Assembly (NCBI GenBank): GCA_035610835.1
Contig: CM069447.1
Span: 59,155,048-59,219,047 of the forward strand
Source: Ophiura sarsii
Taxonomy: Eukaryota; Echinodermata; Ophiuroidea; Amphilepidida; Ophiuridae
DNA length: 64,000 nt
Direction of reading: 5' to 3'
Shown: in pieces, positions 10,337-54,733 of the stretch
How positions within the stretch are numbered: the stretch's first letter is position 1
Layout: each line of letters starts with the position of its first letter
Position numbers and translations under genes: made by a program
The notes under the pieces: model-generated
Databases searched by the model: none
Told to the model about the DNA's origin: nothing
What the model saw: the letters and a program-made list of their open reading frames with translations, nothing else

Positions 10337-10579
10337 ATAGTGAGAATCCCGTTATCCAAGGCCTCCCTGTTGACATAACACAAAACACAGACAATGGCCT
10401 TGCAATTGCTAATGTCAGCTGGATCGAACCAATAGCGACTGATAATTCTGGATCACAGACACTGACATGCAGCTACAGTCCTGGAGAGCCATTCCCAATA
10501 GGCGTCACTGTCGTGGAATGCACGTCCATTGACCCATCGGGGAATGTTGACATACAGAGTTTTACTGTAACAATAAATG
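10337..10579 (+). CDS. HYR domain exon 2 of gene A
   Basis: Complete HYR module, 243 bp, phase 1-1, donor GGTAATAAC. Hallmarks are D-S-E-N-P, VSWIEPIATDNSG, FPIGVTVVECTSID and PSGN, with two cysteines at the same places as exon 1. It differs from its unit 2 paralog (51185-51427) at 6 of 81 residues. The acceptor is weaker than in unit 2: TTAACTTTCAG here against a longer TTTTTCTTCAACAG there, an 8-base loss from the pyrimidine tract. Whether this exon is spliced efficiently is unknown. Confidence 0.88.
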
Positions 10580-11394: not shown

Positions 11395-11628
11395 ATATCG
11401 AAAACCCAATCATCTCTGGGGCACCAAATAACCATGGCATAAGTGGTGCAGATAACTCTCCTGTTACTTGGACAGAACCTACGGCCTCAGATAATTCCGG
11501 ATTGGTGACATTGACTTCAAGCCACAGTCCGGGGGCGCAGTTACCACTTGGGGATACATTGGTAACGTACACAGCTATGGACGAAGCTGGAAATCAAGCT
11601 TCGCATGCTTTCACCATAACAATGCGAG
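11395..11628 (+). CDS. HYR domain exon 3 of gene A, cysteine-free
   Basis: Complete 78-residue HYR module, 234 bp, phase 1-1, acceptor GTAG and donor GGTATGT. Hallmarks are D-I-E-N-P, VTWTEPTASDNSG, LPLGDTLVTYTAMDEAGN. The two cysteines seen in exons 1 and 2 are replaced by Ser (position 42) and Tyr (position 59), a coordinated loss. Its unit 2 paralog (52654-52887) differs at 6 of 78 residues and has the same Ser and Tyr, so the loss predates the duplication. Confidence 0.9.
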
Positions 11629-12838: not shown

Positions 12839-13020
12839 ATTACTACCGTGCGGATGGCCACTGTGGATCTTCATTTACGGCGCCAAATGGTGGAGAAGCC
12901 AAGTGTTTGCAAGCTTGTTGCTCTACAGGTGGATGGTGCGGGACTAGTAGTAACCATTGTGGATATTACCTCTACCGAGACTATAGATGCTGTGCAGGGC
13001 AGTCGTGTAATGCCTGTTAA
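12839..13020 (+). CDS. Terminal exon of gene A: hevein-like (type 1 chitin-binding) module
   Basis: The exon follows a TTTCCAG acceptor, is entered in phase 1 like the HYR exons, codes 60 residues (first codon split) and ends in TAA. It has ten cysteines. The core ACCSTGGWCGTSSNHC keeps the hevein spacing CC-x5-C-x6-C exactly; C1-C2 is longer than in hevein, and the tail adds a CC pair, QSC and a final NAC. Of the four residues that contact chitin oligomers in hevein (Ser19, Trp21, Trp23, Tyr30), Ser and the second Trp are present, while Trp21 is Gly and Tyr30 is His. Hevein domains are common in plants and fungi and rare in animals. The role is inferred as glycan recognition at the C-terminus of a secreted HYR protein; it could be a convergent Cys-rich fold. 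Confidence 0.75.
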
Positions 13021-34848: not shown

Positions 34849-34891
34849 ATGCTGACTATGCCGTATGACATCTTACTTGTCATGTTTGCAC
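34849..34891 (+). CDS. First exon of gene B: start codon and signal peptide
   Basis: ATG at 34849 is the first Met after an in-frame stop at 34798-34800. It codes 14 residues (MLTMPYDILLVMFA) plus one base and meets a strong donor (GTAAGT at 34892). Spliced to 35169, the hydrophobic run continues as LYCSVVG, giving a typical signal peptide with a likely cut after SVVG. The fit of the hydrophobic core across the junction is the best evidence for the exon. No promoter element is evident upstream. Confidence 0.5.
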
Positions 34892-35168
34892 GTAAGTGTA
34901 CCTATAACATATAACGGTCTATTACTTAGCTTTGAACAAATAAATAAGATTGCCAACTCCGAGGTGTATTTGCAATTTGGGACGAATGTATTGGCTTTAA
35001 GGATAGTGATAGATATAATGAAAATAGTTTGTGTATTTATTGGGGTGTATATTTATTTGTTGTTGGGGTGTTTATGTTTTAATTTGCTTTATAACTATCA
35101 ATTTAATGATATATAGAAATAGTATTTAATACGACAACACTTTGTTTCTTCCATACCAATCATAATAG

Positions 35169-35441
35169 TTTATTGCTCGGTGGTTGGCCATGTGTGTATA
35201 CTTAAGGAGAGACTCGATACTACAACAGACTGGCTACGATGGTCACTACCGTCTAAGGAACGTTGTCACTGTCAGATTGTAGTGACTATTGAGAATGGCA
35301 AAGGACCAAAAAGCTGTAATCCAAATATGGAAGAAGCTACGCAAGATATATGGTTTACCGACTATTCGGATGACCTATCAAACAGATTGAACTGGAATAA
35401 AGAAAAACTTGATAAATTACTCGACAGAGATATTTTATGCG
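35169..35441 (+). CDS. Second exon of gene B: unrecognised cysteine-bearing module
   Basis: 273 bp, phase 1 at both ends. Acceptor ATAATAG follows CTTTGTTTCTTCC; donor is GGTAAGTT. After the signal peptide it codes HVCILKERLD, then LPSKERCHCQIVVTIENGK, SCNPNMEEATQDIWFTDY and an acidic/basic helix-like tail ending RDILC. Cysteines after the predicted cut: five, including a C-H-C pair. I do not recognise the family. The C-x-C, beta-like strand, N-G turn, C-N-P order faintly recalls small secreted cytokine folds, which is not enough to assign one. The ORF is far longer and less A/T-biased than chance frames nearby. Confidence 0.55.
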
Positions 35442-35639
35442 GTAAGTTCATCCTAAAGACGTATCTGGAAAGTAATTTTAAGTTTACATCGTTTTATTTT
35501 TCATTTTAAAACTAAAAAAGCTCAATCCTAGTCCAAAATATGAGGTTCAACAGATTTGCAGCAACCAGCAAAATGTGTATAGCTAACCATGATCGCAGGT
35601 TCATCATCGGTATAATAGTCAATCAGTCAATATTGAAAA

Positions 35640-36380
35640 GCTATCACTTCATTTTCAATAAATATTTTGTTTTTTATCAATGCACGAAAGAAGTTGAGTA
35701 GACTGATACATTCTTGAATTAAGTATAGTTGGTATAAAAGCTCGAACAGGGGAGAGTCTGAGGGGTGATGTGCACCCTCAGAAGTAGATTTTTTCAATTT
35801 TCGAACTCATTTGGTGCGATCTGGTGTTTACTTTTGACCAATATTGTATTGAAAGCCATTACTTCATTTTTAATAAATATGTTGTGTTGTATCAATGTAA
35901 GAAAGAAGTTGAGCATATACTGATATATTCTTGATTTAAGTATAGATGGTTTGAAAGCTCGAACAGGAGGGGGTGGGGGGGGGGGGGGGAGTCTGAGGGG
36001 GGATGTGCCCCCCTCAGAAGTAGATTTTGTTTCTTCAATTTTCGAACTCATTTGGTGCGATCTGGTGTATACTTTTGACCAACATTTTATCGAAAAGCCA
36101 CCTCTTCATTTCCAATCAATATTTTGTTTTTATCAATGTAAGAAAGAAGTTGAGCATATACAGATATTTTCTTGATTTAAGTATAGATTGTTTTAAAGCT
36201 CGAAGGGGGGGAGGGGTCTGAGGGTGATGTGCCCCGATCAGAAATGGATATTTTTATATTTTTGAACCCATTTGGTGCGATTTGGTGTGCACTTTTGGCC
36301 AATATTTGTATTTAAAAGCAATCACTTTATTTCCGATCAATATTGGCTTTTTATATAGGCCTAGTCTATGCCAGAAAGAA
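35640..36380 (+). repeat. Tandem repeat, unit 215-240 bp, about 3 copies
   Basis: GAAAGAAGTTGAG recurs at about 35686, 35901 and 36142; each copy also has AAAGCTCGAACAGG-like, GAGTCTGAGGGG, CTCAGAAGTAGATTTT and TTTGGTGCGATCTGGTGT words. A G-run (35969-35999) has expanded in one copy. Confidence 0.88.
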
Positions 36381-36514
36381 TTTATACTTCCAAAAGATCG
36401 GTTCTAGTCAACGTACGTACATGTATGTATGTGACCGACGTCAAATTAACTCCTAACTCTCTTATGTCCCTCGCATGCCTCCCCGTCCGCCTTTTTTCTC
36501 TTCCTTTTTCCCCC

Positions 36515-36838
36515 TTCCCCCCCCCCCCCCCTTTTTTTTCTTTTCCCCTTTTTTCCGTTTTTGTTGTTGTTTTTTGGTGAAGGTGAAAAATCAGGGGGTG
36601 GGATGATTACATTGACCAGCCCCCAGGTCAAAAAGTAGGGGGAATATATCCCCCATCCCCCCCCCCCCCCCCCCCCCCCCCCCTTAGCTTTCCGCCCTTG
36701 GTATTACGTACCAACGAGTGCGTTTACGAGCAGGATGACCCGTCAAAGTTAGGGTATAGGGAGGGTTATAGTAGGGTTGGGGCAACCCAACAAATATTAT
36801 AATTACTTTTACTATCATTTGGTCAAATGAGAGCAAAT

Positions 36839-36886
<48 letters not shown>

Positions 36887-36905
36887 TCTCTCTCTCTCTC
36901 TCTTC
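36515..36905 (+). repeat. Poly-C cluster, including runs of 27 and 45 C
   Basis: C-runs at about 36516-36530, 36657-36683 and 36840-36884, the last continuing into a short (TC)n. Such runs are prone to length error in assemblies, and the G-rich complement can form quadruplexes. Confidence 0.9.
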
Positions 36906-37414
36906 CCTTGTGATGTGTTACAATAAATAGCATTGGTAGACGAAACGAAGGTTAATAAGTAATAATTATAAGCACATATCGCATTATCGCACACCGGTGT
37001 ATTAATTTATCTTGAATGGTAATCTGCTAGCCGAAATTGTTCAGTCAACAGCTCTTTAAAATTGTTTTTTCAAAATGAGAAAAACTATGGCGTTACCATA
37101 ACAACCGTGCAACAATGCAAACACGCGATATCACCTGTGAAACGACCCTGCCTCTAATATCAATTTATTAAAAATATAAACAAGGATCGGGTTATATTAA
37201 ATTGACACGGCAAATTGACACACCAATACACCATACATTTGGCTAAAGAGGTGTAAGTACATTCTTTATAGAAGGTTTTCAATTACTGACGGTGCAATTA
37301 CCATTAACAATATGAAGCCATCTCTTGCACTCTTGACTGCGCAAACTTATTTCCACGACGATAAAGATGCATCAGGGATGCATTGTCACTTGAAATGCAT
37401 ACTTTACAAATGTG

Positions 37415-37514
37415 NNNNNNNNNNNNNNNNNNNNNNNNNNNNNNNNNNNNNNNNNNNNNNNNNNNNNNNNNNNNNNNNNNNNNNNNNNNNNNNNNNNNNN
37501 NNNNNNNNNNNNNN
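37415..37514. other. Assembly gap, 100 N
   Basis: Exactly 100 N, probably a gap of unknown size. Open frames crossing it are meaningless. It follows shortly after the longest poly-C runs. Confidence 1.
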
Positions 37515-38436
37515 TTGTTATAAATAAATAAATAAATAAAATGTGATTCGGTTCAATAATGAGAGAGTAAAGTGTGTTTGTTATACAGATTTTCATTTGC
37601 GCAGGTGGTTATTATATTCTCTTTTCAATTAGCCAGTACTGTTGAATCTTTGATGAATGCATTTCTTCATAAATGAATGGGTGAATACATAAAACAATAG
37701 CAAATTAAATTGATATTTGATTGATTTTTTTTTAAATATTATTAATTAAACATGGATCATGCGACTGTTCTATATATGTTTAAATTATAAAAGCATGGTT
37801 TGAGTGAAGATTTATTATCATCGCGTCCTAAATATAATCATGTTAAAATGAAGTATGGCACAAAGCATCGGCCATGTTCAGCCCGCGAAAGTGTTTTATG
37901 GTGTCAACAATTATTTTAACAACTGGAAAATGTTACTTAGAATAGAAGAAAAAGGAAAACAAGAATATAAGTGATGAATGATACTTTTGAGAGAAAATTT
38001 GATTGATTTCTTGTCTGTGCTCTCTCACTCAGTATGAGCAATTGTGGATGAAAGTGTTCTTTGAATACTTTTACGTAATCGCTCATTTCTCCGTGATAAC
38101 TGAACCGAATTTATTTTCTTCAAATAATAACCGACGGATTGAACTTTATCTTGCTGCTTGAATTGTTTTATTCCGATACGTATTGAGGAAGATACGATCA
38201 CCTGAAGGCAAGAAGGTGCGTGGTAATTTATTTTGAGAAACCCTGTAAGAGAGTTCACATTCAAATAAACTATTATTGTTGAACATTTTTGCACATTAAC
38301 ACACACACCTGTGATCAGTATGAAGTAGGTGATATTGTGTTTAATGCAGTCATGGTTAAATACACTGTCAAGTACCTATAGGCCTACAATAACTCAAGAT
38401 ATTTGTTAACCTTCAAATATAAAACAAATTCTTAAA

Positions 38437-41324
38437 TGTAATAAATATAAGAGGACCTGACGTTTCGATTCTAACAGAATCTTTATCGAAGGTAAAATGA
38501 CAGAATACAACATAACACAACATATATATAGACAGAGGAACAATAGGCAGGAAGTCAAAGTGACAGATGAATGAATAGGGGAAGATATCAAGCTAGACAG
38601 CTGATTGATGAAGTGGATAAAATAACAAAAGGATGACATAGACAAAGGGGAGATTAAAAAGTAAAAGGCAAATGGGATATAAAAATAATGGGTGAGTGAA
38701 ATCAATAATGGTGATTGATGACTACAAATAGATAATAAAATGGATGGAAATGTAAAAGGACTGAGAGAATGCATGAGAAAACAAGAAAAAACAAAGTGGG
38801 ACTAGGCCTATGGTAACAAATAATGGAAATGCACTGGAACAAGTAATGAAAATTACTGTGCATAGGAGACAATGTAGAAAATGAAAACAAAGTATCACAT
38901 AAATCAAGAAGTAAAAAATGAAAAATGGAGTGAAGAAAAAGTGGAGAAAAACAAATGGGTAAAAAATACAAATGATAGGTTAATCAGATACAAATGGAGG
39001 AGGTGGGGGGGGGGCGGGGGGTTGAGTCTAATCATTCCCTTCCTGGATGTTTAGGCCATGGGGCTGAATAGTGAGAAGACGCTTCATCCATAACTTCTCT
39101 CTACTGAGACGTACCACTTCTGAACGGCTACCTAAAGATTCAATGCCCTGTAAGATCATATCAGACATAGTGTGGTTGGGAAGGTTGAAGTGGTGTCCGA
39201 CAGGTGGCTTGTTGGTGTTAACCGTCGATCTGTGTCCATAGAAGCGCTTCTTCAGTGAGTTTTTAGTCTCACCAACATACTGGACTCCACACACTCTACA
39301 TGATAAGAGGTAAATGACATTAGATGTGGTGCAAGTGATGTGACCCTTCGTCTTGTAGGTGGCATGGGTGGTGTGGCTGGTGAAGGAATCGCCTTCCTTG
39401 ATGTGTTCCCGGCAAACGACGCACCTGCTGGTCGACTCGCACTTAGAAGTGCCATGCTGCGTGGGGAGAGAATCATCAGTTACCGGGGGATGGTAGCCCG
39501 TACTAACATATCTCGTAGGTTGCGAGGGCGTCTGTAGGCCAGGATTGGTATGTCAGGAACTGCACGACGAAGACGGTCTGATGTGTGGAGAATGTGGTGG
39601 TTAGTGTTGGTGATGTGACGCAGAGGAGGAAGGTTAGGATGAAATGTGGTAACAAGGGGAATCTTAGGGGTGGGGTCTTGGTTTCTGGGCTTCTCCTGAA
39701 GGACTGTGGCTCTCGGGAGAGAGTGGACTTTCTTGATGGCTTGCTGGACTTTGGTGGAGCTGTGACCCCTGGTAACCAGATGCTTCTTCAAATTCTGTGC
39801 ATGATATGAGAATCTAGATTCGTTAGAACAAATACGTCGGAGACGGAGAGCCTGACTATATGCTATGCCTGTCTTACAATGGCGAGGGTGGCAGCTTGAA
39901 GCATGGAGATACTGGTGCGTATCTGTAGGCTTGGTGAAGAGATCTGTAGATAGTATACCATTCTCAGCTTTCTGTATGGTTACATCAAGAAAGTGTGCCT
40001 GTTGGTGGGAGTAGTCAGAAGTGAACTTAATGGTCCTGTGAAATGAGTTCATGTGATCAATGAATGTGAGGAGACTGCTTTCATCACTGGTCTAGATAAA
40101 GAATATGTCGTCAATGTACCGCAACCAAATCCAAGGTCGACAAGGTGCTTCAGCTAGCAATTGTTCCTCCAGCCTAGACATGAAAAGACAGGCCCATGAC
40201 GGAGCCATCCTAGTACCCATAGCTGTGCCATGTACCTGCAAGTAGGTCCTGTCCATGAAAGTGAAATTGTTCTTGGTTAGGACATGGTTCATGAGGCATT
40301 CAATATCAGGTATGGGAGGACTGGAATGACCAATCTTAGCCAAAGCTGCACGGCTTGCTTCTATGCCTTCCTGATGGGGAATGTTGGTATAGAGGGACTT
40401 AACATCAAATGTGCCAATAATAGCGGTGCTTGGAACTTGGTTCTTGATGGCTTCGAGTTTCCTGAGAAAGTCTGGGGTGTCATGGATATAGGAGGGAACC
40501 TGTGAAACAAGAGGCTTGATGAAGTTATCGACAAAGAGGGATATATGCTCAGTTGGGGAGCCGTTGCCAGAGATGATGGGTCTGCCTGGGTTTCCCGGCT
40601 TATGGATCTTAGAAAGGAGGTAGAAGCGGGCAGCACTGCAATCTTTGGGAGATAGAAACTCAAAGGCCTTGTCAGAGAGCTCATGACGCTGATGCATGTC
40701 ATCCAGGGTATGCTGAATCTGTTGAGAAAATGTGTTAGTGGGATCGGAGTCAAGAACAGCATAATGAATGCGGTTGTCAAGATGACGCATGGCTTCATCA
40801 ATGTACTTCTGTCGGTCCATGACAACTACTGCTGACCCTTTGTCTGCTGGCTTGATGATGATGTCTGTCCGTAACCTGATGGAATTCAGTGCCTGGCGTT
40901 CCTCCCTAGGGATATTGTCATGAGATCTGCGGGAAACTTGCTCAGAAGTGTTAACCTGGGTGCTAACGACTTGAACATAAGTCTCAAGGGCAGGGACTCT
41001 GTTCTTGGGAGGAACCCAAGTACTCTTCTTGTAGAACGGCTCAGGTACAGTTGGTGGGGCATCAAGAAAAAATTCCTTGAGACGTATCCTCCGATAATAC
41101 TGAGTAAGGTCCTCGCTAAGCTCAACTTGATTGACATCAGGAGGAGTGGGACAGAATTTAAGGCCCCTAGAGAGAAGTTTGTGTTCAGCATCAGATAAGG
41201 TGGAAGATGAAAGGTTAATGACAGTGGATGCAGCTGGTTCTGGTTCAGGAGGAGGTGGGCGCCTGAACCGACGGTACTTGTGCCGTTTCTGCTTCTCTAA
41301 CAGGCCAGATACTTTCTTGAATTT
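38437..41324 (-). mobile_element. Penelope-like retroelement, 13-bp target duplication
   Basis: ACAAATTCTTAAA stands at 38424-38436 and again at 41325-41337. Unit 1 has a single similar site (about 2112). On the minus strand the 3' UTR ends with AGAATCGAAACGTCAGGTCC, a motif familiar from Penelope-like elements, and carries an A/G-biased stretch at 38500-39000. Coding lies at 39028-41324. The RT N-terminus is cut at the right edge, so the copy is slightly 5'-truncated. Confidence 0.88.
39028..41324 (-). pseudogene. Penelope-like RT and GIY-YIG protein, broken
   Basis: Penelope-type RT in 41324-40092: LLSRGLKFCPTPPDVN, IIKPADKGSAVVVMDR, YLLSKIHKPGNPGRPIISG, FDVKSLYTNIPHQEG, VHGTAMGTRMAPSWACLFM and RYIDDIFFI (catalytic Y-I-D-D). 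A single in-frame TAG at about 40089-40091 interrupts it. The same frame continues to 39480 (HFLDVTIQKAENGILSTDLF, TDTHQYLHASSCHP). A frameshift near 39478 leads to a Cys-containing linker (RCVVCREHI) and the GIY-YIG endonuclease: VIYLLSCRVCGVQYVGETKN, SLKKRFYGH. Two lesions only, so inactive but young. The GIY-YIG after the RT is the usual order for these elements. Confidence 0.88.
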
Positions 41325-41999
41325 ACAAATTCTTAAAAGTAAAATATACAATATTTGTACTATATGTGAATAATGTCTAAACAATTGACATGTTATTACT
41401 GATCTAATGTGCCCGGATCTATTAAATGGAATATACAAACGCCTGTCGTTATGTTGCCAAGGATGGGCTGCTAAACAGACGCCGTCGTGAGGCTCTCATC
41501 ACATATTAAATTAATCATCAAGTCAAGCCACAATAACTGACTATAGGGTTATTGTTCTTCCATGCGTAGATTAGTCAAGGTAGTGGACCTTTAAGAGGCG
41601 TTCATCAAATATTAAATTAATCATCAAGTCAAGCTACTGCGAGGTTATACTTCCATTAGCCTAATAAGATCGAAGGTATTAGTTCTCAAACGCAATTAAC
41701 AAATTATAATAAAACAACTTATTTCTGGCTGGAATATAGTTGACGAGATATCGTGTTCTATATAATATTCAATACTTAATTACAGGATCTAAAAGTATAG
41801 ATTATTTTCGGATAGGTATTTATACATTGAGAAAGGACAACGATATTTCAACACACATCAATAAACGTATAATTATCAATGTGTTTATTAACGCAGCACT
41901 TTTCGAAATTGGAGAAGCAAATCTAACAGCAATATTTAGAGGATAAACGAAACGGTTGAAGACCCAAAATATCTCTGTTTCTTATTTCTATACATTTAG

Positions 42000-44218
42000 T
42001 CCATGAGCCTGGACCCACATTTTTGCTCATCGGTACCATATTGAGGGAGTAAGGCTAACTTACTTTTTTGGAAAGGTATTAACCTCTAGTTTCAGAATAT
42101 GGCTGATAGCAAATTCAAAGCGGTAGCTTTATATGAGTTTTCAGCCATTTTCAAAATGGCCGCCAAAATGCCAACATAAAGCACACTAATAAACTTATGA
42201 TGAATTTTGGAAACTCTGTTGGATGTAAATAACGCAGTCTTGTATATATTAGACCACTAGACACTCATATCCAGAACTTTTTGCGTTGTTAACACATCAA
42301 AATCCAAGATGGCAGCCAAAATGGCCGCCAAAATGGCCGCCAAAATGGTAAAATTCCATATATTGGCATATATAAACCAACACGTATGATCAGAGTATAG
42401 TTTTAACAATGGAATGTATGTGTTAGACCATTAAAAACTCATAACTCGTATTTTTGCATTGTTAACATACTTTAAAACCAAAATGGCCGCCAAATTGATA
42501 GCCAAAAATGATCAAAAATTGTCAAAATTCCATATAATATCATAATATCAACCATAATGCATGATGAAAATATAATTTTAATGATGGGATGTATGTATTG
42601 GACTACTAGGAACGCATATACAGTATTCTTGCTTTGTTAACATAGTACAAAATCCAAAATGGCTGAAAAAATTGGCCCCTTAAATGGTTCCAGAAGTGGC
42701 TGCAAAAATTGTCAAATTCCATAAAATGGGATAATATCAACCTAAATGTATAATGAAAATATAGTTTTAATGATGGGATGTATGTATTAGACCACCAGTA
42801 AATCATATCTAGTATTTTTGCTTTGTTAACCTACTTAAAAATCCAAAATGGCCCCCAATATGACAGAACAAATTGTTGGAATTCCATAAAGTGGGCTAAT
42901 ATCACCCAAAATGTATGATGAAAGTATAGTTTTAACATTGGGGTGTATGTCTAAACAACAGCGTCGCGTATTAAGCGAACTGGCGCGTGCTAATTTGCGT
43001 GAAAAACAAAACTTTCACGGGATATGCGGCGCATGGGAATTTCGCTGATCCCCTTCGGGCAGACTTTTCCATTCCACTTTGTAGATGATCAGAATAAGGG
43101 ATTTAAATCCTTTTAAATAGGCTTTTGGGATTTCAAAATTGAAAATTTCTTTTCATGTACTGATAGATAACACTATGAAGTTTTGAAAAATGAAGAAAAG
43201 TGAAATTAGTGAAAAATACAAAATTGAGAGTGCACAGCCCCCTTAATAATTATTTTTCCTGTCGGAAACCATCATCAAAACAAAATACAATATAAAACTT
43301 TATTATCAAAAATTGAAACCAGCAAACAAAGTACAAAAATGTTTCCGACATTTTCTTAAAACTTCACAACAATTAGACCACCGATAACTCATATCCACTA
43401 TTATTTGCATTGTAATAACATACTTTAAATCCAAGATGGCCGCAAAAATGGTCTCTGTAAATGTAAAAAATAGTCTATATACATGAGTGTATGATAATCC
43501 AAAATAGATATTGTGAGAGTGTGTATTACATCAAATCCACCAAATAGTATGTTCTAAACTGGTAAGCTATTGCTTTTAGAAATAAGGCCCACATCTGTGA
43601 CAATTTTGATTCCAATCTCTTTCCAAAATGGCTGCCAGAATGGTTCAGTTGATGTTAAATGACCTAAAATGCAATTGTTTTGTATTGTAAATGACCGGTA
43701 GTATGTAATACCAATACCCCAAAATTGAATGGGACAGCATTCACTACATGTCTATGATAAAGCCTAGGGGTTGTATGTCTAGTTTGAGTATTCTAAAATA
43801 TCCAAGATGGCTGTAAAAGGTTAAAATAGCTGAAAAACAGTGTTAGTTTATTGTTAGTATTACATTAGATATGACCACATTATTATATCTACAGCTTTAA
43901 GCCATCCAGTAAATGTGTTTGTATACGTGACAAGGATGATTGAATGGTATAGACTCCATTTTGACAATGTCATGTTATTAAGATGGGCATTATAATGAAC
44001 ATTTCATTAAAATTACCTCCAAATGGCCAAAATAATTACCACGGGTGGCCACCAATTGATAAAAATATATGACCAGAATGAAAAAATGGAGTTTATACCA
44101 TTCAATCATACCTTTTCACCTACAGATACGTTTACTTGGTGGATTAAAATCTATAGATATAATCTTTTGGTCATATCTAATGTAACACTAACAATAAAAC
44201 TAATACTGTTTTCAGTTA
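42000..44218. repeat. Degenerate tandem array with AAAATGGCNGCC cores, unit 2 only
   Basis: Words like CCAAAATGGCCGCCAAAATG recur near 42165, 42310, 42480, 42655, 42845 and, more diverged, near 43435, 43625 and 43805. The first five are 145-190 bp apart and share following blocks (ATTCCATA, ATGATGAAAATATAGTTTTA, GGATGTATGT-TTAGACCA, TTTTTGC-TTGTTAAC). The block 42955-43370 is a different insertion in the array. Flanks join in unit 1 near 2830-2995. Confidence 0.8.
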
Positions 44219-44819
44219 TTCAGGAAATGGAGTGTGTGCAAATATTAACTGGATCTGTATTGTGTAAAAACACATGCGTTTGCTAAAACTCAAGCCCCCA
44301 AATGTTCGCAATGGTAAAATACCTTCATTGTTGTATCATGAAATGTAACATTTTCGCGAATTACCAACACTCCAGAGAAATGTATGTACACGGATATTCC
44401 ATGGTTACTTTTGACGTCTTCTTTGGGGTAACAACCCCCTCTGACTGATTGCAGGGTAAGCCAACCATGAATAATCGTCATAAATTAAATAAAAACGAAT
44501 TGTATATCTGTCATAAGCTGATAGGCCTTGAAATTGGAAAATCACGAGAGAAGATAAGCCGGCGAGAAAGGCCGGGGGAGGGTACTCGCCTAATGTAGTA
44601 AAATGAGATGTTCCACTCTAATGGGTTACTTTTTTGCAAACAAATCCCTAAACATGGGGTAAGACAAAATCCCTTAAAAATAATTGAAATTATTTCGTTT
44701 TTTCAACAGAAGTCCTCCTGTAAATCAGTCATGCTTATGGAATACGGCAGAACCTTGAACATGGGTTGCATTTTGAATGGAAGTCCCTAATAATAGGTAC
44801 AATTTGTTGCCAAAATGAC

Positions 44820-45240
44820 CCCTACGAATCCTTTTTTTTGTACCAATGTACCTTTTTTTGGTACCAATATGTACCTTTTTGGGATACCAATGTACCTCTT
44901 TTTGGTACCAATGTACCTTTTTTTGTTATTAATATACCTTTTTTGTGTGAAAACGCCCTCCCCCCCCCCCCCCCCTCCACCCACCCCAATTTCCCAATTT
45001 CCCGAAAAACGGCCCATTTCCCATTGTGTAAAGCGTTTTTGTAGGGCCGTTTTGGACTAAAACATGTCCTACCCCACCCCCCCTCCCCCCCCCCCCCCCC
45101 CTCCCCCCGCTCTCAAAATTGTCTGAGATGTCTAAACAAAAATTAGGGGCAACCTTTTACGATTTTTTGGGTACCAATGTACCTTTTCCGAAAAATACGC
45201 CCCCCCCCCCCCTAAAAAATTCCCTGCTTACGGGCCTGGG
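44820..45240. repeat. GTACCAATGTACCTTTTTT array with poly-C runs
   Basis: About six copies of a 22-30 bp word (GGTACCAATGTACCTTTTTT and variants) at 44840-44945, a further one near 45170, and C-runs at about 44957-44975, 45080-45102 and 45200-45213. Unit 1 has none of this: 3665 passes directly to the sequence matching 45250. Confidence 0.85.
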
Positions 45241-46514
45241 TTATTGGTTAAGACGCTTCAGCCGCTCATCCACGCGGAGATACTGACTATTATAGAAATC
45301 CTATTCATTGCGCGGAAACCAAATCGTCATTTGCGATATGCGTATAGACTTGTGTAAGTATTTCCTGGATTGAATTTCTTTCTTTCCTTTAGTTCCCTTT
45401 CTTAAATTTAACCATTATGAATGCTGCACTGGTATATATTTCCTTCAAAATTGGGGGTCATCGCCTATCATCTTGTCAGTTATTTGACAGTACAAATAGC
45501 TGGTGCAGTTGCCAAATAAACTTGCTCTTAGGGTTTTGATGGCAGAGGGGAAAGACAGGGGGTTTAAAATCTGTATAATGCGTCCGGTATTGTATAATTA
45601 TTTTTTTATGAAAAGGTGGAACCTATTTCTGGACAAAAATCGATATAAACTTGCTATAATGTAACATACGGTACTTCGGCTAAAAATCAAATCTGGCTCT
45701 ATGTAAAACAGCCAACATAAATTTTTAAAAAATGTAGTAAAATTCTAAACTAGAAAATTATAATAATGAAAACACTGACAAGTAAATGTCTGGTTGACAG
45801 TTGTATAAGATAGTGTTAAATCCGTGGGACCTTAAAAGCACAAAATTGAATATTCATGACTATAAATATCTTGCATTCATCTATACTTATATGACATTCT
45901 AAAGTCGGTGTGGCTATAAAAACTATTATTTAAAAGTCAAAGGCGGACTCGCTTGGAAACTATAAGTAGAGAACAATTATTCAAGTCTATCATAATTTGA
46001 AACTAGTGCAATTTAACATAAAATCAAATTTTACAATTTCAAGTCGTTAAATCATCTCTAGAGCAGTTTTTTGTTGAAAATTCGCACAAGTTGGCTAGAC
46101 TGTAGACAGTAGCAAGACTGTAGATTGCCTTTGGCTACTCAAGGTATATATCGAGGGTTGAGTACAACAAAGGGCTATCTGCATTTCGGTATATGAAATT
46201 ATTATTATTATTTAATGTTACTATAAATGTGGAATTGGCACGAATAATTATGCTGTTATGATGATGATCAGAGAGCAGGGGTAAAACTCCTTATTTTGCA
46301 TAATTATTGGAATTGGCCCGAATAATATGCGACCTTTATACAAATGTTATGACGATGATTCGACAACTCAGAGCTGCAGGAAAATTGAATCAGGTGTTAT
46401 TTTCCTGATTACGGCACCTACAATGCTGCATATGAAATATTAATATGCGATACATCGTTAATTTATTGGTGAGCAAAAAGTATATTATATTTTAGATAAT
46501 ACTAGTAGACCTAC

Positions 46515-46540
46515 GCCCCCCCCCCCCCCCCCCCCCCCCC
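46515..46540 (+). repeat. Poly-C run, about 26 bases
   Basis: Uninterrupted C-run inside otherwise AT-rich sequence; same class as the runs at 36.5-36.9 kb. Confidence 0.9.
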
Positions 46541-46884
46541 TTCCTCCAAAATGGACTGTCGTATCGGTTGAGATTGGCACTGTCGGTTCATTTGACAAAA
46601 GGAAACATGGGATCATGATGGTCAAAAGTACATATATAGATGGACATTTTTCGTAACCCATGTGTCCCCAAAATACAATATGTGTGGGTACAAACTTGTA
46701 TAAAGCCAAAAATGTACCTCAATCATAGCAAAAATAAATGTAAAGTATTATATTCGCGGTACCGTTTGTACAGCGATTATATTATTACATTACATTACAT
46801 TAACATGATTACTGTGATGATGAGATGAGTAGCGGAATAAATACTAATGATATTATCTACATTTATTAGAAAGTCGTACGCTGT

Positions 46885-47260
46885 AACATTATCCAAACGT
46901 ATACAACACATCGCACCAAATGTGTTCATAAATTGAAGAAAACAAATCTAATTGTGAGGGGGCACATTACATTCCCCCTCATACTCCCAATGTCCGAACT
47001 TGTCAACCATCTATACTTAAATCAAGGAAAAAATCAGTATAAAATGCTCAACTTCTTTCTTGCATTGATATAAACCAAAATATTGATTGGAAAAGAAGAG
47101 ATGGCTTTTCAATAAAATAATTGGTCAAAAGTATACACCAGATCGCACCAATTGGGTTCAACAATTGAAAACAAATCCAATTGTGAGGGGAGCATCCCCT
47201 CTCATACTCCCGTCCGCAATATTCAAATAGTTGAAACCCCCCCCTCTAAATAAATCCTTG
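46885..47260 (-). repeat. Inverted copy of the 35.6-36.4 kb tandem repeat
   Basis: On the minus strand TCAATGCAAGAAAGAAGTTG, GTGCGATCTGGTGTATACTT and GAGTATGAGGGG-like words repeat the 35.6 kb units in order, about 1.5 copies. So the same satellite-like family lies on both sides of the start of unit 2 in opposite orientation. Confidence 0.8.
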
Positions 47261-48132
47261 ATACGCGCCTAATCATCTCCACGCATAGAACAAATATTGG
47301 TGGGGACATGAATCCTGTAACGTGAGTGCACGGTTGATGAAATAGTGACGTCATAAGATCAAACTCTTTATGCAAGAAGTGAGAGTTACGGTATCGGATT
47401 TAGGAAAGTTCAAAAGTACACATCTTCGACGAAAAAACAGGACTACTTTGACAAGAGGATGGATGTTTTTAACATATTCTTGTCACATTGGTAACATGTC
47501 GCTCATTCCATTCCATTTTAGGGACATCTTAAAAAATATTGATTTTTAATCTCAACATCCGAATCACACTAAGTAAATTTCTCAGAAAGCTTTTCTAAAG
47601 TATTGATTTATTTCACACAAGAACATTTTTGACACAAAAATGTAAGTGTCGTAGCATGGGATCGCCCAATCATTGACATCCTTCGAGAGATCACAATTGG
47701 CCTGCTTTAGCCAAGCAGGCCAGTATCGTAGTTAGGAGAGAAAGTTCGATTATATGCTCAGTCAACATATCGTAGTTTATAATCTGTTTACATCTTACTG
47801 CTTATTCGACATCCAAAATGCATATTCGACGATGAGAAGTTCCATTACATATAAAAGATCAAGATAAACGTATTCACAGCTCGTCTTTAAAATGATGTAA
47901 ACAGTTTCACTAAAATAAGTTAATAATGTCCCTATGCTGTTGTACAGTGAAGCTTCCACATCCGAGGATCTTTCTCCGCTGCAATCGCAATGGCGGCCTC
48001 CTATTTGTCACATATCCATTGTAATTACTCTCGAACATATTTTCCGTATTGTTGACCATGCTATGATAACTTCATAGTGACTCAGACAAATGTATAACGC
48101 TTATTTTCAATGAACTTTTTTTTCTCAACCAG

Positions 48133-48375
48133 ACAACGAGAATCCCGTTATTCAAGGCCTTCCTTCAGACATAACACAAAACTCAGCATATGGGCTTGCA
48201 ACTGCTACTGTCAACTGGATCGAGCCCACGGCGACCGATAACTCTGGAACGCAGATCCTGACATACAGCCACAGTTCTGGAGAGCCATTCCCAATAGGCG
48301 TCACTATCGTGGAGTGCACATCTATTGATCTATCAGGGAATGCTGAAGTACAAAGTTTCACCATAACAATTCAAG
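48133..48375 (+). CDS. HYR domain exon 1 of gene B
   Basis: 243 bp, phase 1-1, acceptor CAACCAG, donor GGTAATAAC. HYR hallmarks are D-N-E-N-P, VNWIEPTATDNSG, FPIGVTIVECTSID and LSGN. The first cysteine of the pair in the paralog (position 45 in gene A) is Tyr here (ILTYSHSSG) while the second (VEC) remains, leaving one unpaired Cys. It differs from gene A exon 1 at 11 of 81 residues. Opposite-strand frames are shadows. Confidence 0.9.
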
Positions 48376-49253
48376 GTAATAACGAAAACTGTTAATCAGA
48401 GTGAGTCAAAAGGAAATTGTACAGGAATGAATATTTGTATTAAAAAAGACCAAACTAATTTAACAAACGAATGAAGCACGTATTTACAGAGCATGTTCAC
48501 CCGCTCGTATGACAAAAATAATCACTGAAATTGACCCTTGCTATCAATAATTAAGCCTGTTCTAATAAAAGAACCCATTTTTGTGGCTGCCAACGGATGT
48601 TTATTTCTTTGAAATTATCAATCTTAGTGAGAAACGTAGAATACATATTGACAGAGAGTAGGGCAAGTTCACTGTGTAGCGAATAGGGAATAAACCAATG
48701 GTAATGCAATCGATTCATGATTACAATTATTACATAATAGTTGACACGTTTGTTGAAACGGAATCTTATAGAAAATAAAACAATCTATAAAATGAGAGCA
48801 AAATCATGTTTGTACCATACAGGGATGAGGAGTTATTGTAAATTGAACATAGAATTGGGAAAATGTGTTATATTCCCCATAGAGATTGTACACAGCGCCA
48901 CCGCCCCCGCCCCTGCCACCGCCCAACCCCTGACCCTAGAAATACTTGATTTATTCACAATATTATGTAGCTAGCTAAATAGGCTTTCAAATGACACCTT
49001 AACCATTATAGTTCTACCACATTGTTGAGTTAATAAAGAGAGATGGATGATTCGTCACCAAACATGCAACGCCGCCACCATGTGTGGGTGGCGAGTTCAA
49101 AAACACATAGCCATATACAATAATGAGCCAAGTAATGTATACGGTAACACAGGGATGTTCATGTTTGTATTATTAATAAATGTGGGTTATAGGTTATACA
49201 CTAGCAACCAGAAGTATTAGGACACTTGGGTGTGGCGTCAACATCATCGCATA

Positions 49254-50749
49254 CAGGGTGTATCAGAATGAACTATACCGAAGCCATATGATTTATTACG
49301 GTATGAATTCGATCGATATTGTTCCAAAAAAACCGCCCAGCTTTCATACGAATTCTAGATTTTGAAAATCGGATATTGTTGATAGAAAATACAGACTTTC
49401 TGGTAAAGATGGTAGATTTCAATTTTGGTTGAAATCATAAATTTAAAAATTAGTAGTTAAAATACATAACATAAAATACGCATAAGAAGAAACCTTTTGT
49501 TAGTCAGATTTGCAGATTGCTTTTCAAGGTCTGTGAATTATTCGAGCTAACAACACGTTTTTTCATCGAGCCTTGCAACACGAGAACAAAAAGAGATATC
49601 TCAATGAAATTAACATATAATGTAGGAAACATGTTCACCTTCATATTGCAGGTGTTTAAATTTAAAACAATAATAAATTTGTATTTTTTATGTACAGGGT
49701 GTCTCAAAAAAAAACGTGCACGTGTTTACCCAACATAATGACCATGAAATTCTACAATGTGGTGTATCAAGTGTATACATATTGATAGACTAAACGCTTA
49801 GCTTTCATATGCCGTTTATTTCATCTAATTTTGTTTTTTCAATCCTGAGATATGATCAATTAACTAAAGCTACCTAAAATCGAAGTTGTGCCACTTTTAC
49901 AGAAAGAATGCTTAAGATAAGCATTAAAACCCTCGTCCTCCTAAACGGGAGGGGATGGTGGTCGCCGATTGCGCTAAAACGCAAAGAACAGTGACCTAGG
50001 GCATCTAGTTGATCGCTTTTACATCCCCTGCGCTCATTTTGACGAAAACAAATTGAGGGTGCCACCTTACCCGGGGGTAGGGTAAGCCGTCAAAGTCCGA
50101 TAGAAGGGGGTGGTTGCCACCTTACAATTTTTTTAAATCGCCATTTTGAAAAATATTTTAATTGTATGGTCCTGCATATTAAAGCATATGCCTATGCACT
50201 TATAAGCAAAAAAACGGGTGAAATTCCGATATTTGGAAGTTTTTTGGCGAAGATTTCTTTTTCGGCCTATTTCACTGTGTAGCGAATACGGCGGGATTTT
50301 GAGGTCGCCTATGTTTGGTGACGTCATTGTGACGTCATACGTATGATGTTTATACTTGTTTTGGTATGTATGGATATATGGAACCTCTAGCTATACCATG
50401 GTACCCAAATAAGCATACTCTGCATTTCGGATTAGATTTGTTTAGGGGGTGGTAACAACCCCAACCCCCCTCTCTGGAGTAACCCTTTCTATTCATTGCA
50501 AACTGTAAAGTGGCACAACGTCGATTTTAGGTAGCTTTAGTTAATTGGTCATATCTCAAGATTGATAAAACCAAATAAGATGAAATGAACGGCATATTAA
50601 AGCTAAGCGTTTAGTCTATCAATATGTAAACAGTTGTTACACCAAATTCTAGAAGTTCATGGTCAATAACTTTGGTAAACACGTGCACGGTTTTTATTGA
50701 GACACCCTGTATTTTAGAAACACGGTATAGTTCATTCTGATACACCCTG
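49254..50749. mobile_element. TA-flanked TIR element (unit 2 copy), interrupted
   Basis: Same ends as 9375-9877 (CAGGGTGTATCAGAATGAAC and GTTCATTCTGATACACCCTG), each next to TA. A second element of related ends is inserted at 49695-50709. Confidence 0.75.
49695..50709. mobile_element. Nested TIR element, ~205 bp arms, TA duplication proven by empty site
   Basis: Ends CAGGGTGTCTCAA and TTGAGACACCCTG; inverted similarity continues inward for about 205 bp (ACGTGCACGTGTTTACC, TATTGATAGACTAAACGCTTA, AACTAAAGCTACCTAAAATC, GTTGTGCCACTT). TA occurs at 49693-49694 and 50710-50711. Unit 1 at about 9837-9845 reads TTTTTATGTATTTTAG, the uninterrupted site with a single TA. The interior has no transposase. 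This is a post-duplication insertion. Confidence 0.88.
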
Positions 50750-51184
50750 TATATCAAATTTAAAGTGTAATATTTAAACAAACTTGTTGCTCAATCACTT
50801 CTTATTAATAAATTCATGTTTCCTACAACATCTGTTTCAATTCCATGGAATTGTAGAAAACAGGGGCCTTCGTCAAATCCTCATACCCATTTCCCATTAG
50901 AAATAGCTCATGAATAAATAATCAACCTATAATGTCTCAAGAATATCTCAAATTCATTTAAACATGCTTTTAAGAACTTTCCATTAATTATATTACCCTA
51001 GAATACCAACAATCTAACACAGTAGCCCAAGGGATTTCCCAGTGTTTTATTTCAATTTGCAGCTTGCAATGTGTCCTAATACTGTTGGTTGCTAGTGTAC
51101 ATCACAAAAATGATCGAACGACACTGACGAATTGACGAAAAGAGTATCTTATGCGTATATTTCAATTAACTTTTTCTTCAACAG

Positions 51185-51427
51185 ATAATGAGAATCCCGT
51201 TATCCAAGGCCTCCCTGTTGACATAACACAAAACACAGACAATGGCCTTGCAATTGCTAATGTCAGCTGGATCGAACCAATGGCGACTGATAATTCTGGA
51301 TCACAGACACTGACATGCAGCCACAGTTCTGGAGAACCATTCCCAATAGGCGTCACTGTCGTGGAGTGCACGTCCATTGATTCTTCAGGGAATGTTGACA
51401 TACAGAATTTCACTGTAACAATAAATG
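51185..51427 (+). CDS. HYR domain exon 2 of gene B
   Basis: 243 bp, phase 1-1, strong acceptor TTTTTCTTCAACAG, donor GGTAATAAC. Hallmarks are D-N-E-N-P, VSWIEPMATDNSG, FPIGVTVVECTSID and SSGN, with both cysteines kept (LTCSH and VECTS). 6 of 81 residues differ from gene A exon 2. Confidence 0.92.
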
Positions 51428-51449
51428 GTAATAACGAAAACAACTTTAT

Positions 51450-51817
51450 TCATTTATTCATAACAATAGGCTGAAGAGCCAAGACAAACCCAATAGTGAA
51501 CAAGCAATAAATTAAAGAGATGCCCGAATAAGATACTGTACATACACAGACCGGGATGATCCCCTACTCGTTATGAAGGAGTCTGTGACCTTTTAACGTG
51601 CTCGGGGATAGCTCTTCCGATACAGGGTCCAAAATGTATACGTGACTTCCGAACCACGGTGCGCCTATGTACATACCTACTTCAGTCTGCACGGTCTGAA
51701 GGAGGCATGGAGACGAGGCTGTTGGTGTATCGTATTGAACTCACGCTCAAACGATCCACCAACAGAACTACGGTGCGCAACAGTATTACGACTTATAGCG
51801 TAACCCCACTGAAAGTC
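51450..51817 (-). mobile_element. SINE-like or truncated LINE insertion, unit 2 only
   Basis: Unit 1 runs directly from GAAAACAAC into GTATATGACGTCCGGGTC, while unit 2 has about 370 bp between the same flanks. On the minus strand the insert ends in ATGAATAAATGAATAAAG, a simple-repeat tail. CTTTAT is found on both sides (51444-51449 and 51818-51823). No coding recognised. Confidence 0.65.
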
Positions 51818-52653
51818 CTTTATGATGTCCGGGTCAAAGGTTGTACCTGACTTTCTGAAGACATATTTCCAGATTATGTTTTTAAGAGTGCTTTATTTTT
51901 TCATCATCCCATTTCTGATAACCATTTAACTGGTCACATAAATCAACATATCAAATATCCATTGACTTCCAATTAATGTGTCCATTTCCGTAAACCATTC
52001 ACCATATTTAACTATAGGCTATATTCGATAATAAAAGAGTCAAACGATCATTGCATAATCAGAGCCTAGTATGGTGACTCTTTCAACTTTATCCATTCTT
52101 AATTTATATTCTTGAACTTCGCATTACACATGCTAAATATATTACACATGTATATAGTCTTCTTACTCGTTGTAAAGGCACATTCAATCACTTTGGCCAA
52201 GTGAGCGCCCTCATTTTTATAAGAAACGTGTGTTTTGTTGTTTGTTTGTATAATGCTTTTCTATGTCAACTAAATGAAAAGAGCTCCCAATAGTTTAGCG
52301 TTTTGCATATATATAACTGTTTTAATAACGTTCTAGCCGAAATGTTTATTAGGTGCAATACCTGAAGCCTTTGAAATCGTTGCTAGACCATTTTCAGCCC
52401 AAACGATTGTGCACAATAATGGCTCTCAGTCTCAGAGATATATATGTTTACACAATTTTTGAAATGTTAGAGAATGTCAAATATTTTTAAAACTATTATG
52501 GACATCACAGTTGTTTTACGCGTTTTAAGAATGGAAATGACCGACATAGGCAATGTATTAGTGTAAAATAATGTTTTGAAGATTGTCTTAAAATTAATAA
52601 ACCGGGATGAGAAATCACTAAATGTACTTGTAATGTGTTCTGATTGATCGTAG

Positions 52654-52887
52654 ATATCGAAAACCCAATCATCGCTGGGGCACCAAATAACCATGACGTA
52701 AGTGGCGCAGATAACTCTCCTGTTACTTGGACAGCACCTACGGCCTCAGATAATTCCGGACTGGTAACATTGACTTCAAGCCATAGTCAGGGGGCGCTGT
52801 TACCACTTGGAGATACATTGGTAACGTACACAGCTATGGACGAAGCTGGAAATCAAGCTTCTCATGCTTTTACCATAACAATGCGAG
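52654..52887 (+). CDS. HYR domain exon 3 of gene B, cysteine-free
   Basis: 234 bp, phase 1-1, acceptor GTAG, donor GGTATGT. Hallmarks are D-I-E-N-P, VTWTAPTASDNSG, LPLGDTLVTYTAMDEAGN. Ser and Tyr replace the Cys pair, as in gene A. 6 of 78 residues differ from the paralog. Confidence 0.9.
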
Positions 52888-54551
52888 GTATGTGTGTATT
52901 GTAGATGTTGGATATAACGTGAAAACGTGCATTGTCAAGAAGGGATTGCAACCCTCTCTAACATTTCATCCCCTTAAAACCAGAACTGACTATATATGTC
53001 CATTTTGGGCAAAATTAAGTTAGTACCACCATAATAGTAGTTAATCGATCCTTCTTTTATCATAATATTTCAGCACTATGAATACCGTGATCTCAGGGCA
53101 CTGGTTTAGGGAATAAAATGTAACATTGGCGGGAAATATGAAAGACAAGTGTATGGCATGCATTAAGATACATGCGTTAACAGTGTTAATATTGGCGCTA
53201 CGCTGATTCTTGTCAATTTGCGGTGCCCAGAGACCATGATGTTTATAGTACTGAAAATACATGATAAAAATGACCCACGTGTTTGATTTTTTTTCGTGAG
53301 AAAGGGATAAGACTTACAGTTTAAGTATCATAAGTTTTTTTATTTTTTTATTTTTATTATTTTTTATTATCTTTTATTGTTTATTTCTATCATAATTTTC
53401 ACATTTCACATAATTTCATCATGTTTACATTGCATTTTCGATACATGTATAACACATTTTCATATGATTTTCATCATGTTTACATTGCATATCATATACA
53501 TGTTTAGCACATTTTCATGTACTTTTCAGCATTTTTATATTTTTATATGCTTTTCGGCATGTTTACATTCATAATTTTCACATTTTATGTATAGCACATT
53601 TTCATATACAAGTACATTTTCATATGCTTTTCAGCATGTTTACATTTCATATCATGTATAGCACATTTTCATATGCTTTTCAGCATGTTTACATTTCATA
53701 TCATGTATAGCACATTTTCATATACTAGTACATTTTCATATGCTTTTCACCATGTTTACACAATTACATAACACATAACACATTTTCATGTGCTTTTCAT
53801 GTTAACATTGAATATCATTACATTTTCTTTTCAGCATTTTTATATTTTTATATGCTTTTCGGCATGTTTACACATTTGTATATGCTTTTCAGCATGTTTA
53901 CATTGCATGTCATGTTTAACACATTTTCATATGCTTTTCAGCATGTTTACACATTTTCATGCTTTTCAGCACTTTTACACATTTTCATTTCAATAACACA
54001 TTTTCATGTGCTTTTCGTGTTTACATTGGATATCATTAGGTAACGGCATGTTTACATAATTTTCAACATTACATTATATACATCATGTATCCAGTTATTT
54101 GTATATAAACTCATATTTGATTTTATTATAAGTTTTACATCATGTTTATAATATTTAATTTTGAACCCCATTCATACAAATATCTTTGGTATGCCGGTAT
54201 ACATAGACAAACAAACAATAAACAATTACATTTTTAACATCGTTTTATAAATCTCTGATTTGCAGCTCAAACAATAATAAGCTGATTAAATGTGGGTGGT
54301 TCCCGTAACGGAACTTGCTGATAACTAATTTACCAACACTTATTATTTTATTTATAGAATTGTTTATGTCTTCATCTTCTTTATTATAACCAAATAATAC
54401 ATCTGCATCTGTAAGGTTTTTTTTATTGACACAGGTCACTCACGGTTCAGAGATTTTCAATCTATTTATTGAATGCCCCTCGTACTATTACTATTATAAT
54501 AATAATACTAATAATGCTGTTCGTATTACATTCAAAATTCCACTTTTCCAG
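52888..54551. other. Intron before the terminal exon of gene B
   Basis: 1.66 kb; shares only its first ~100 bp with unit 1. Most is taken up by the 53.4-54.1 kb minisatellite. TTTATTGAATGCCCCTCGTAC near 54465 also occurs at about 813 in the left flank. Confidence 0.55.
53390..54090. repeat. Minisatellite: CATTTTCATATGCTTTTCAG and CATGTTTACAT words
   Basis: About a dozen imperfect copies of a 40-60 bp unit combining ACACATTTTCATATG, CTTTTCAGCATGTTTACATT and ATATCATGTATAG. Spacing is irregular; frames across it give repeated Phe/His/Ser strings and are not coding. Not present in unit 1. Confidence 0.85.
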
Positions 54552-54733
54552 ATTACTACCGTGCGGATGGTCACTGTGGAACTTCATACGCGGCGCCAAA
54601 TGGTGAAGAAGCCAAGTGTCTAAAGAAATGTTGCTCTACGGGTGCATGGTGCGGGAGTAGTGATCTCCATTGTGTACATTACCTCTACAGAGACTATAGA
54701 TGCTGTGTAGGGCAGTCATGTACTGCCTGTTAA
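54552..54733 (+). CDS. Terminal exon of gene B: hevein-like (type 1 chitin-binding) module
   Basis: Acceptor TTTTCCAG, phase 1 entry, 60 residues, stop TAA. All ten cysteines match gene A in position; the core is CCSTGAWCGSSDLHC with hevein spacing CC-x5-C-x6-C. Ser and the second Trp of the hevein ligand site are kept; the other two positions are Gly and His. It differs from gene A at 14 of 60 residues, a much higher rate than HYR exons 2 and 3, with changes scattered between fixed cysteines. By inference it is the glycan-recognition end of the protein. Confidence 0.75.

Follow-up and report, generated by a model that had tools for sequence, protein, structure and literature searches.

The 64,000-nucleotide stretch of the Ophiura sarsii genome analyzed here (the window; GCA_035610835.1, contig CM069447.1, positions 59,155,048 to 59,219,047) carries a gene of six exons, termed gene B, and the four 3' exons of a second copy, gene A. 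No RNA families were found in the window at the Rfam gathering level. A single tRNA-Asp(atc) was called there by ARAGORN and is probably spurious.

Exon structure of gene B and its tandem partner

Gene B lies on the plus strand, and its spliced frame is open over 405 codons, with GT-AG boundaries at all five introns and every junction in phase 1, confirming the six same-strand, phase-1 exons of the preliminary description at unchanged coordinates. Exon 1 (34849..34891, 43 nt) provides the ATG and the start of a leader and ends at a phase-1 donor, GTAAGT, while exon 2 (35169..35441, 273 nt) provides the end of the leader and an N-terminal Cys module with five conserved Cys. HYR domains 1, 2, and 3 are encoded by exon 3 (48133..48375, 243 nt), exon 4 (51185..51427, 243 nt), and exon 5 (52654..52887, 234 nt), respectively, and exon 6 (54552..54733, 182 nt) encodes a hevein-like C-terminal module with 10 Cys and a TAA stop, with an AATAAA at 54941. 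The 405-aa product consequently reads, in order, as leader, Cys module, three HYR domains, and a 60-aa end. The gene model also bears out the initial proposal of a modular protein with a leader (MLTMPYDILLVMFALYCSVVGHV) that is completed only by the first splice.

Candidates for exon 1 were sought between 32000 and 35120 as ATG-led stretches no longer than ~180 nt that end at a phase-1 donor with a score >2.5 and place 15-45 residues before CILKERL, donor scores being taken from an in-house matrix built on consensus values. The donor at 34891, with two in-frame ATGs, is the sole one in this interval with these properties. Exon 1 is therefore a predicted exon, called on signals and hydrophobicity, to which homology adds only a loose leader match with P0028, which comes from another brittle star, Amphiura filiformis. 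Weak donors follow HYR1 (1.31) and HYR2 (-0.69), whereas the other three score 4.26, 6.18, and 4.70, and at these two positions the donors of genes A and B are similar. Overall, we consider the structure of gene B as modeled to be highly probable.

Gene A is a tandem partner that repeats the four 3' exons of gene B in the same order, as had been claimed. On the plus strand, its three HYR exons lie at 4834..5076 (92.5% identical to B; dN/dS 0.49), 10337..10579 (95%; dN/dS 0.29), and 11395..11628 (94.4%; dN/dS 0.27), and its hevein-like exon and stop at 12839..13020 (85.3%, all 10 Cys kept), with an AATAAA at 13081 and a broken HYR relic upstream of the gene near 4195-4325. The 296 aligned codons of the two genes contain no stop or frameshift, and dN/dS across the shared exons is 0.43 by NG86 (dN≥dS in 3 of 2000 bootstraps) and 0.55-0.56 by YN00 and ML. 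The HYR exons are under purifying selection (dN/dS 0.35; dN≥dS in 3/2000 bootstraps). For the tail alone, dN/dS is 0.63 and not significant (dN≥dS in 378/2000 bootstraps), and its changes have no third-position bias (9, 10, and 7 by codon position). At the residue level the tail is the faster part, with 14 of 59 residues changed between copies versus 23 of 237 in the HYR exons (Fisher p=0.007). At HYR exons 1 and 3, exon identity alone is weak proof, because between the copies some of their 60-bp flanks reach 86-93% similarity, nearly the level of the exons.

The Cys module and the integrity of gene B

The Cys module had been described as new, and it has no significant match in Pfam; against the PDB, sequence searches returned three chance-level matches (E 0.58-3.4) and a profile of six rows none at E≤10. 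We dismissed as chance a match to AllG (E 0.13-0.16), and a chemokine- or NTR-like CxC module was considered as its identity with nothing found in support. The structure predicted for the module with four relatives had a mean pLDDT of 42.9, too poor for use. The module is, however, not confined to gene B. Five A. filiformis models, identified by a protein database search with residues 1-118 of P0028, share it, and in tblastn against the window all five align in frame with exon 2 (E 1.9e-13 to 2.4e-15), with 41-47% identity over the module. P0028 itself, named hyalin-like and 626 aa long, is identical to gene B at 46 of 108 positions (43%; E 1e-22, an E value for one comparison), and its module-to-HYR junction falls at the same residue. 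An alignment of five rows (the window, P0028, and P0121-P0123) has 32 invariant columns, and gene B has the family's motifs, a conserved C..C.C..C..C plus RW and WNK. The module is N-terminal in P0028, P0121, P0122, and P0123, and a putative hydrophobic leader precedes it in gene B as modeled and, on visual inspection, in P0028 and P0121, the P0122 record being partial. Across the family the module is linked to HYR, EGF, or F5/8C, and in the gene B model it runs in frame into three HYR domains. The uncharacterized proteins P0121, P0123, and P0124 have HYR as gene B does; unlike gene B, P0122-P0124 have F5/8C and P0121 and P0122 have EGF, and P0028 and P0121 carry an unclassified ~160-aa end in place of the hevein-like one. 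For that end in P0121, none of the six PDB matches obtained (E 0.082-0.87) was meaningful, and no hevein motif was found in the five relatives. In the explanation that we prefer, gene B is a member of a family whose hallmark is a Cys module at the N-terminus, joined to adhesion-type modules and to exchangeable C-terminal ones.

Intron 2 of gene B (35442..48132, plus strand) extends over 12.7 kb, is full of repeats, and contains a minus-strand reverse transcriptase (Pfam on ORFs), which we take to be of the Penelope type. An intron of this kind would suit a division into two neighboring genes, one with the leader and Cys module and another with the HYR-hevein exons, starting de novo near HYR, as would the lack of any gene A head within the window, the presence of the Cys module without HYR in P0122, and its absence from most of the listed HYR proteins (present in 5 of 124). 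However, the two parts are joined at the same residue in P0028, both are also present in P0121, P0123, and P0124, and no further coding exon of these relatives was found between them in gene B: the plus strand of the intron holds no HYR exons by the HYR profile in six frames, and tblastn with the five relatives (E≤0.05) found no HYR, EGF, or F5/8C exons in it. The few minus-strand HYR profile matches in the whole window (E 0.061 or weaker) were taken as chance. Because HYR follows the Cys module immediately in P0028, at the junction seen in gene B, the doubt over the 12.7-kb intron is largely answered; two genes are improbable, and the Cys module and HYR exons very probably form one gene spanning the large intron. 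Even less probable is that this gene is decaying or silenced. One could cite in favor of decay or silencing the Tyr at residue 44 (exon frame) of its HYR1, a position occupied by Cys in gene A, its weak donors, and the transposon ORFs on all sides, but this reading sits poorly with 405 codons free of stops and frameshifts and with the constraint signal across the shared exons.

HYR domains and the hevein-like end

The three HYR domains proposed for gene B are upheld by Pfam PF02494, which matches the product in three stretches (E 2.6e-37; 127.5 bits versus a gathering score of 21.7). The accompanying view of HYR as an adhesion domain of deuterostomes is too narrow, as many of the 120 listed matches of the HYR search (28 further matches lie beyond those listed) have bacterial or archaeal names. 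Echinoderm and hemichordate hyalin-like proteins, such as P0001 (Diadema) and P0010 (Ptychodera), carry PF02494 domains in tandem as gene B does, but apart from P0028 and P0121-P0124, none of the 119 examined among the matches listed has the Cys module. Hyalin, the sea urchin hyaline-layer protein, has only HYR domains in common with gene B. HYR, sea urchins, and positive selection are the themes of PMC5521101.

The Cys pattern of the tail, CG...C...CCS..G.CG....C, fits the hevein core, and its only significant solved relative is the chitin-binding part of amphioxus PGRP3, matched both by a profile of the two copies (PGRP3 chains 4zxm, E 4.1e-4, and 4z8i, E 5.5e-4) and by single copies (gene A, E 2.9e-4; gene B, E 1.4e-3). 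The domain is present as sequence in both PDB entries and solved only in 4z8i (PMC4610682). Plant hevein-family lectins (hevein 1t0w, pokeweed lectins C and D) have the core CCS..G.CG....C as in the gene B tail, whereas their flanks and partners are unlike gene B and their similarity is weak (E 0.02 to 0.8; hevein by profile, E 0.57). Four angiopoietin-2 rows (E 0.048-0.059), ranking above the plant lectins in the tail profile search, were read as chance Cys matches. The amphioxus domain (BbtPGRP3; PMC4610682) has in common with the tail the YRxDGxCGxxYxAP arm, the hevein Cys core, and the Ser, second Trp, and His, but it is N-terminal, ahead of the PGRP enzyme domain, whereas that of gene B is C-terminal, behind HYR, and has two extra Cys. 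Pfam matched no PGRP domain in the 405-aa product. Of the four residues that PMC4610682 maps as contacting chitin, three (Ser, second Trp, and His) are kept in the tails of both copies, and the position of PGRP3 W53 is Gly in both; chitin binding was lost in the PGRP3 W53A/W55A double mutant. The PF00187 (Chitin_bind_1) score is below the cut-off (8.4 bits for B and 13.2 for A, versus 27.8), and we therefore term the tail hevein-like rather than counting it as a member. The hevein-like end of the preliminary description thus stands as regards PGRP3 similarity and the Cys core, but not as regards membership in PF00187 or a complete chitin site, and because of these two points we treat chitin binding as hypothetical. 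The structure predicted for the tail with its paralogue (mean pLDDT 46.6) was too poor for use.

Proposed function and its implications

Among the matches listed, none of the 124 proteins examined has a hevein motif, and none has the Cys module, HYR, and a hevein motif together; blastp with the tail matched only P0107 (E 0.021 with the B tail and 0.10 with the A tail) and P0064 (E 0.13), which we took as chance. Among the open-access papers listed by literature searches, no title or abstract opening describes HYR plus hevein or the Cys module of gene B. A Cys head, three HYR domains, and a chitin-lectin-like tail seem to be newly combined here, within a small gene family.

Starting from the exons, frame, modules, family, duplication, and HYR-exon selection, all of which are shown by sequence, the explanation that we favor for the whole, with a probability of roughly 0.6, is a secreted glycan-binding adhesion or defense protein with one head and exchangeable ends. 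After removal of the leader, we infer that a product of ~380 residues would be secreted. Its three HYR domains would form an Ig-like rod, and the 10-Cys hevein-like tip may hold GlcNAc-type glycans, either microbial or from the coat on the animal's own surface. The head is rich in Cys, and its conserved Cys are odd in number; it could link chains or bind a partner, and the protein as a whole might then serve as a barrier or agglutinin that binds glycans multivalently. Within this proposal, we judge glycan binding to be evenly balanced, and an immune rather than a structural or adhesive role is tentative, at clearly less than even odds.

The strongest competitor, which we would place only somewhat short of even, is a matrix protein, structural or adhesive, of a hyalin-like coat, cuticle, or mucus, with a tip that binds the animal's own glycans and has no immune role. 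Many echinoderm and hemichordate HYR records among the matches listed are named hyalin-like, the chitin site has lost one Trp, and PMC11959729 names Hyalin as related to regeneration in a connective-tissue cluster of O. sarsii; on the other hand, the closest solved tail belongs to a bacteria-directed amidase (PMC4610682), and between copies the tail changes faster than the rest. It is also conceivable, but unlikely, that the tail is now a disulfide-rich cap or protein-protein module and no longer a glycan binder. The Gly at the W53 position in A and B and the replacement of the usual last Cys pair by four Cys after the hevein core would agree with such a change, but both copies keep the Ser, second Trp, and His, and the core Cys pattern is kept as well.

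The locus points to a new extracellular module, which phase-1 exons throughout connect with domains for adhesion and glycan binding, and it presents a hevein-like domain outside the context of amphioxus PGRP. PMC4610682 argued that amphioxus gained its plant-like chitin-binding domains by horizontal transfer, as none had been found in other chordates. Because the echinoderm copy has the same N-terminal arm as that of amphioxus, our comparison suggests an older animal origin of the hevein-like domain and points to this rather than to horizontal transfer. More speculatively, and on analogy, gene B may belong to a brittle-star-specific secreted recognition family with a shared Cys head, exon-shuffled HYR/EGF rods, and F5/8C, hevein-like, or unclassified ends, in which tandem copies change fastest at the binding end. 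Although we think it doubtful as yet, such a family could form a modular defense repertoire with a logic like that of the VCBPs, the variable-region chitin-binding proteins of amphioxus.

Gene B and the junction between its head and the HYR exons

The six exons proposed for gene B on the forward strand in the preliminary description (34849-34891, 35169-35441, 48133-48375, 51185-51427, 52654-52887, and 54552-54733) matched exactly when the window was re-examined. Once spliced, they leave 405 codons open, with a TAA stop ending at 54733; each of the five introns has GT-AG borders, and every exon junction is in phase 1. The HYR and hevein-like exons of both gene B and gene A, the copy of its four 3' exons (4834-5076, 10337-10579, 11395-11628, and 12839-13020, forward strand), are all free of stops in the coding frame before the terminal stop (8 of 8). 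For their other frames, 14 of 16 counts gave 3 to 8 stops, one gave 2, and one, the first frame of the gene A hevein-like exon, gave none. The support for exon 1 (43 nt) rests on signals: a scan of 32000-35120, for which we set the interval, the limits on length, the threshold, and the matrix ourselves, left 34891 as the sole surviving donor, with two in-frame ATGs.

The gene model was weakest at the 12.7-kb gap that separates exon 2, which encodes the Cys module, from the first HYR exon. Searching with the spliced protein returned 148 proteins at E ≤ 0.001 from 5,355 candidates, and the best 120 of these were examined. P0028, a 626-residue "hyalin-like" protein of Amphiura filiformis, had the top coverage among the matches listed (84% of the query) and is identical to the exon 2 module at 46 of 108 positions (E 1e-22). 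Its last module cysteine runs directly into HYR as YCDKEAPVI, where gene B reads LCDNENPVI, the D being the residue that the intron splits. An HYR profile search found no extra HYR exon in the intron, and tblastn matches of five A. filiformis relatives at E ≤ 0.05 were confined to exon 2 and the HYR exons.

The donors of HYR1 (48375/48376) and HYR2 (51427/51428) are weak and identical, both GTAATAAC, as they are in gene A. Reading through the HYR1 donor of gene B adds GNNENC and then a stop, so intron retention there could yield a short protein form. The 12.7-kb intron also holds an element (39028-41495, minus strand; RVT_1 29.2 bits, just under the 29.6 cut-off) that we take to be Penelope-type, with a presumably GIY-YIG-like ORF that has no Pfam match. 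Another gene B intron carries a 1015-bp element (49695-50709) flanked by TA on both sides, with CAGGGTGTCTC termini and two 210-bp inverted ends that are 90% alike; from its ends and TA target we assume it to be Tc1/mariner-like. Gene A has the empty TA site at 9838-9839, so the insertion postdates the duplication. A retroelement ORF with an endonuclease domain lies at 22530-24158 (minus strand), with GDVEPNPGP, presumably a 2A-like ribosome-skipping motif, near its start.

The Cys module and its relatives

Within a word-based search of candidates sharing words with the query and 0.55-1.75 times its length, the Cys module was found in a single brittle star species only, which makes the window likely to be ophiuroid as well. 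Residues 1-118 of P0028 retrieved five proteins at E ≤ 1 from 112 candidates, all from A. filiformis: P0028 itself (Pfam: HYR) and the uncharacterized P0121 (EGF and HYR), P0122 (EGF and F5/8C), P0123, and P0124 (both HYR and F5/8C). P0124 has a divergent module at residues 1-110 and a nearly full one at about 768-835, and is probably two adjacent tandem genes merged by annotation. Two of the five models are on 67.1-Mb contigs and three on 66.5-Mb contigs, and they may thus form two genomic clusters. P0121 and P0028 have in common an unclassified C-terminal domain of 160 residues, with no Pfam match there in either and no meaningful PDB match for P0121.

The module alignment has 32 invariant columns across five sequences; four cysteines are invariant in all six rows, the divergent P0124 copy included, and a fifth in five of six. 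This odd count suggests a free cysteine, available to a partner or to another chain. No significant relative of the module was found in Pfam or PDB sequences, and no protein near-identical to the gene B product was among the best 120 of the 148 matches. With the spliced-protein matches covered to that same depth, and within the word and length limits given above, none of the 124 proteins examined combined Cys module, HYR, and hevein motif (hevein motif in 0, Cys module in 5). Apart from the Cys module, every part of gene B is known or has known relatives, and we rate its product as one of the secreted HYR mosaic proteins, with a combination of parts that looks new.

The hevein-like end and the gene A copy

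The tail scores below the PF00187 cut-off of 27.8 bits in both copies (8.4 in gene B, 13.2 in gene A). Among sequences of solved proteins, the amphioxus peptidoglycan recognition protein PGRP3 was top for both (E 1.4e-3 for B, 2.9e-4 for A), and the stretch matched is the one named as its hevein-like chitin-binding domain in the portion of PMC4610682 drawn on here. According to that portion, the domain was solved in 4z8i, 4zxm shows the PGRP domain only and its sequence has both, and chitin is contacted by Ser51, Trp53, Trp55, and His62; chitin binding is absent from the W53A/W55A double mutant (PMC4610682). A two-copy tail profile again ranked PGRP3 first (4.1e-4), ahead of angiopoietin-2 (E 0.048-0.17), which we took as chance cysteine matches, and of pokeweed lectins and hevein (0.24-0.57); with the gene A tail alone, lectins ranked second (E 0.02 and up). 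In the HMMER alignment, the four contacts correspond to Ser, Gly, Trp, and His in both genes, and with Ser, Trp, and His retained and Gly at Trp53, the predicted chitin site appears partly kept. Beyond the core, both copies have four cysteines (RCC, SC, AC), whereas PGRP3 has two there.

Gene A lies upstream of gene B on the same strand, with no Cys module exon for it in the window; a broken HYR exon relic over two frames lies further upstream (4195-4325; profile E 3.5e-4 and 8e-3). Exon identity between the copies is 92.5% for HYR1, 95.0% for HYR2, 94.4% for HYR3, and 85.3% for the hevein-like exon, with NG86 dN/dS of 0.49, 0.29, 0.27, and 0.63, respectively. Pooled values were 0.35 for the HYR exons and 0.43 for all four, each with dN ≥ dS in 3 of 2,000 bootstraps; the hevein-like exon alone was not significant (378 of 2,000). 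YN00 and ML gave 0.55 and 0.56 for all exons. Identity in the 60-bp flanks was 92/86% for HYR1, 75/47% for HYR2, 93/69% for HYR3, and 52/36% for the hevein-like exon, so the contrast between exon and flank is clear for HYR2 and the hevein-like exon only. Replacements are denser in the tail than in the HYR exons (14/59 vs 23/237, p = 0.007). All ten tail cysteines are kept, and 6 of the 14 replacements fall in frame residues 31-42, around the putative binding loop, a clustering that hints at ligand divergence between the copies.

A common head with exchangeable ends

From its leader, we infer that the gene B product would be secreted. HYR domains are established as Ig-like adhesion modules. The tail, its aromatic platform weakened, likely binds glycans. 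Relatives in A. filiformis have the same head and other ends, among them F5/8C, which often binds glycans or lipids. For A. filiformis, PMC11310086 describes expansions of the coagulation factor and ficolin families and discusses these as immune or wound related; HYR, hyalin, and chitin each have no occurrence in its main text, so the Cys-module gene family is not named there under any of these words. The best clue to the protein's mode of action is the common head with exchangeable ends: the head may perform a task common to the family, assembly or partner binding, and the exchangeable end would pick the target, microbial or self.
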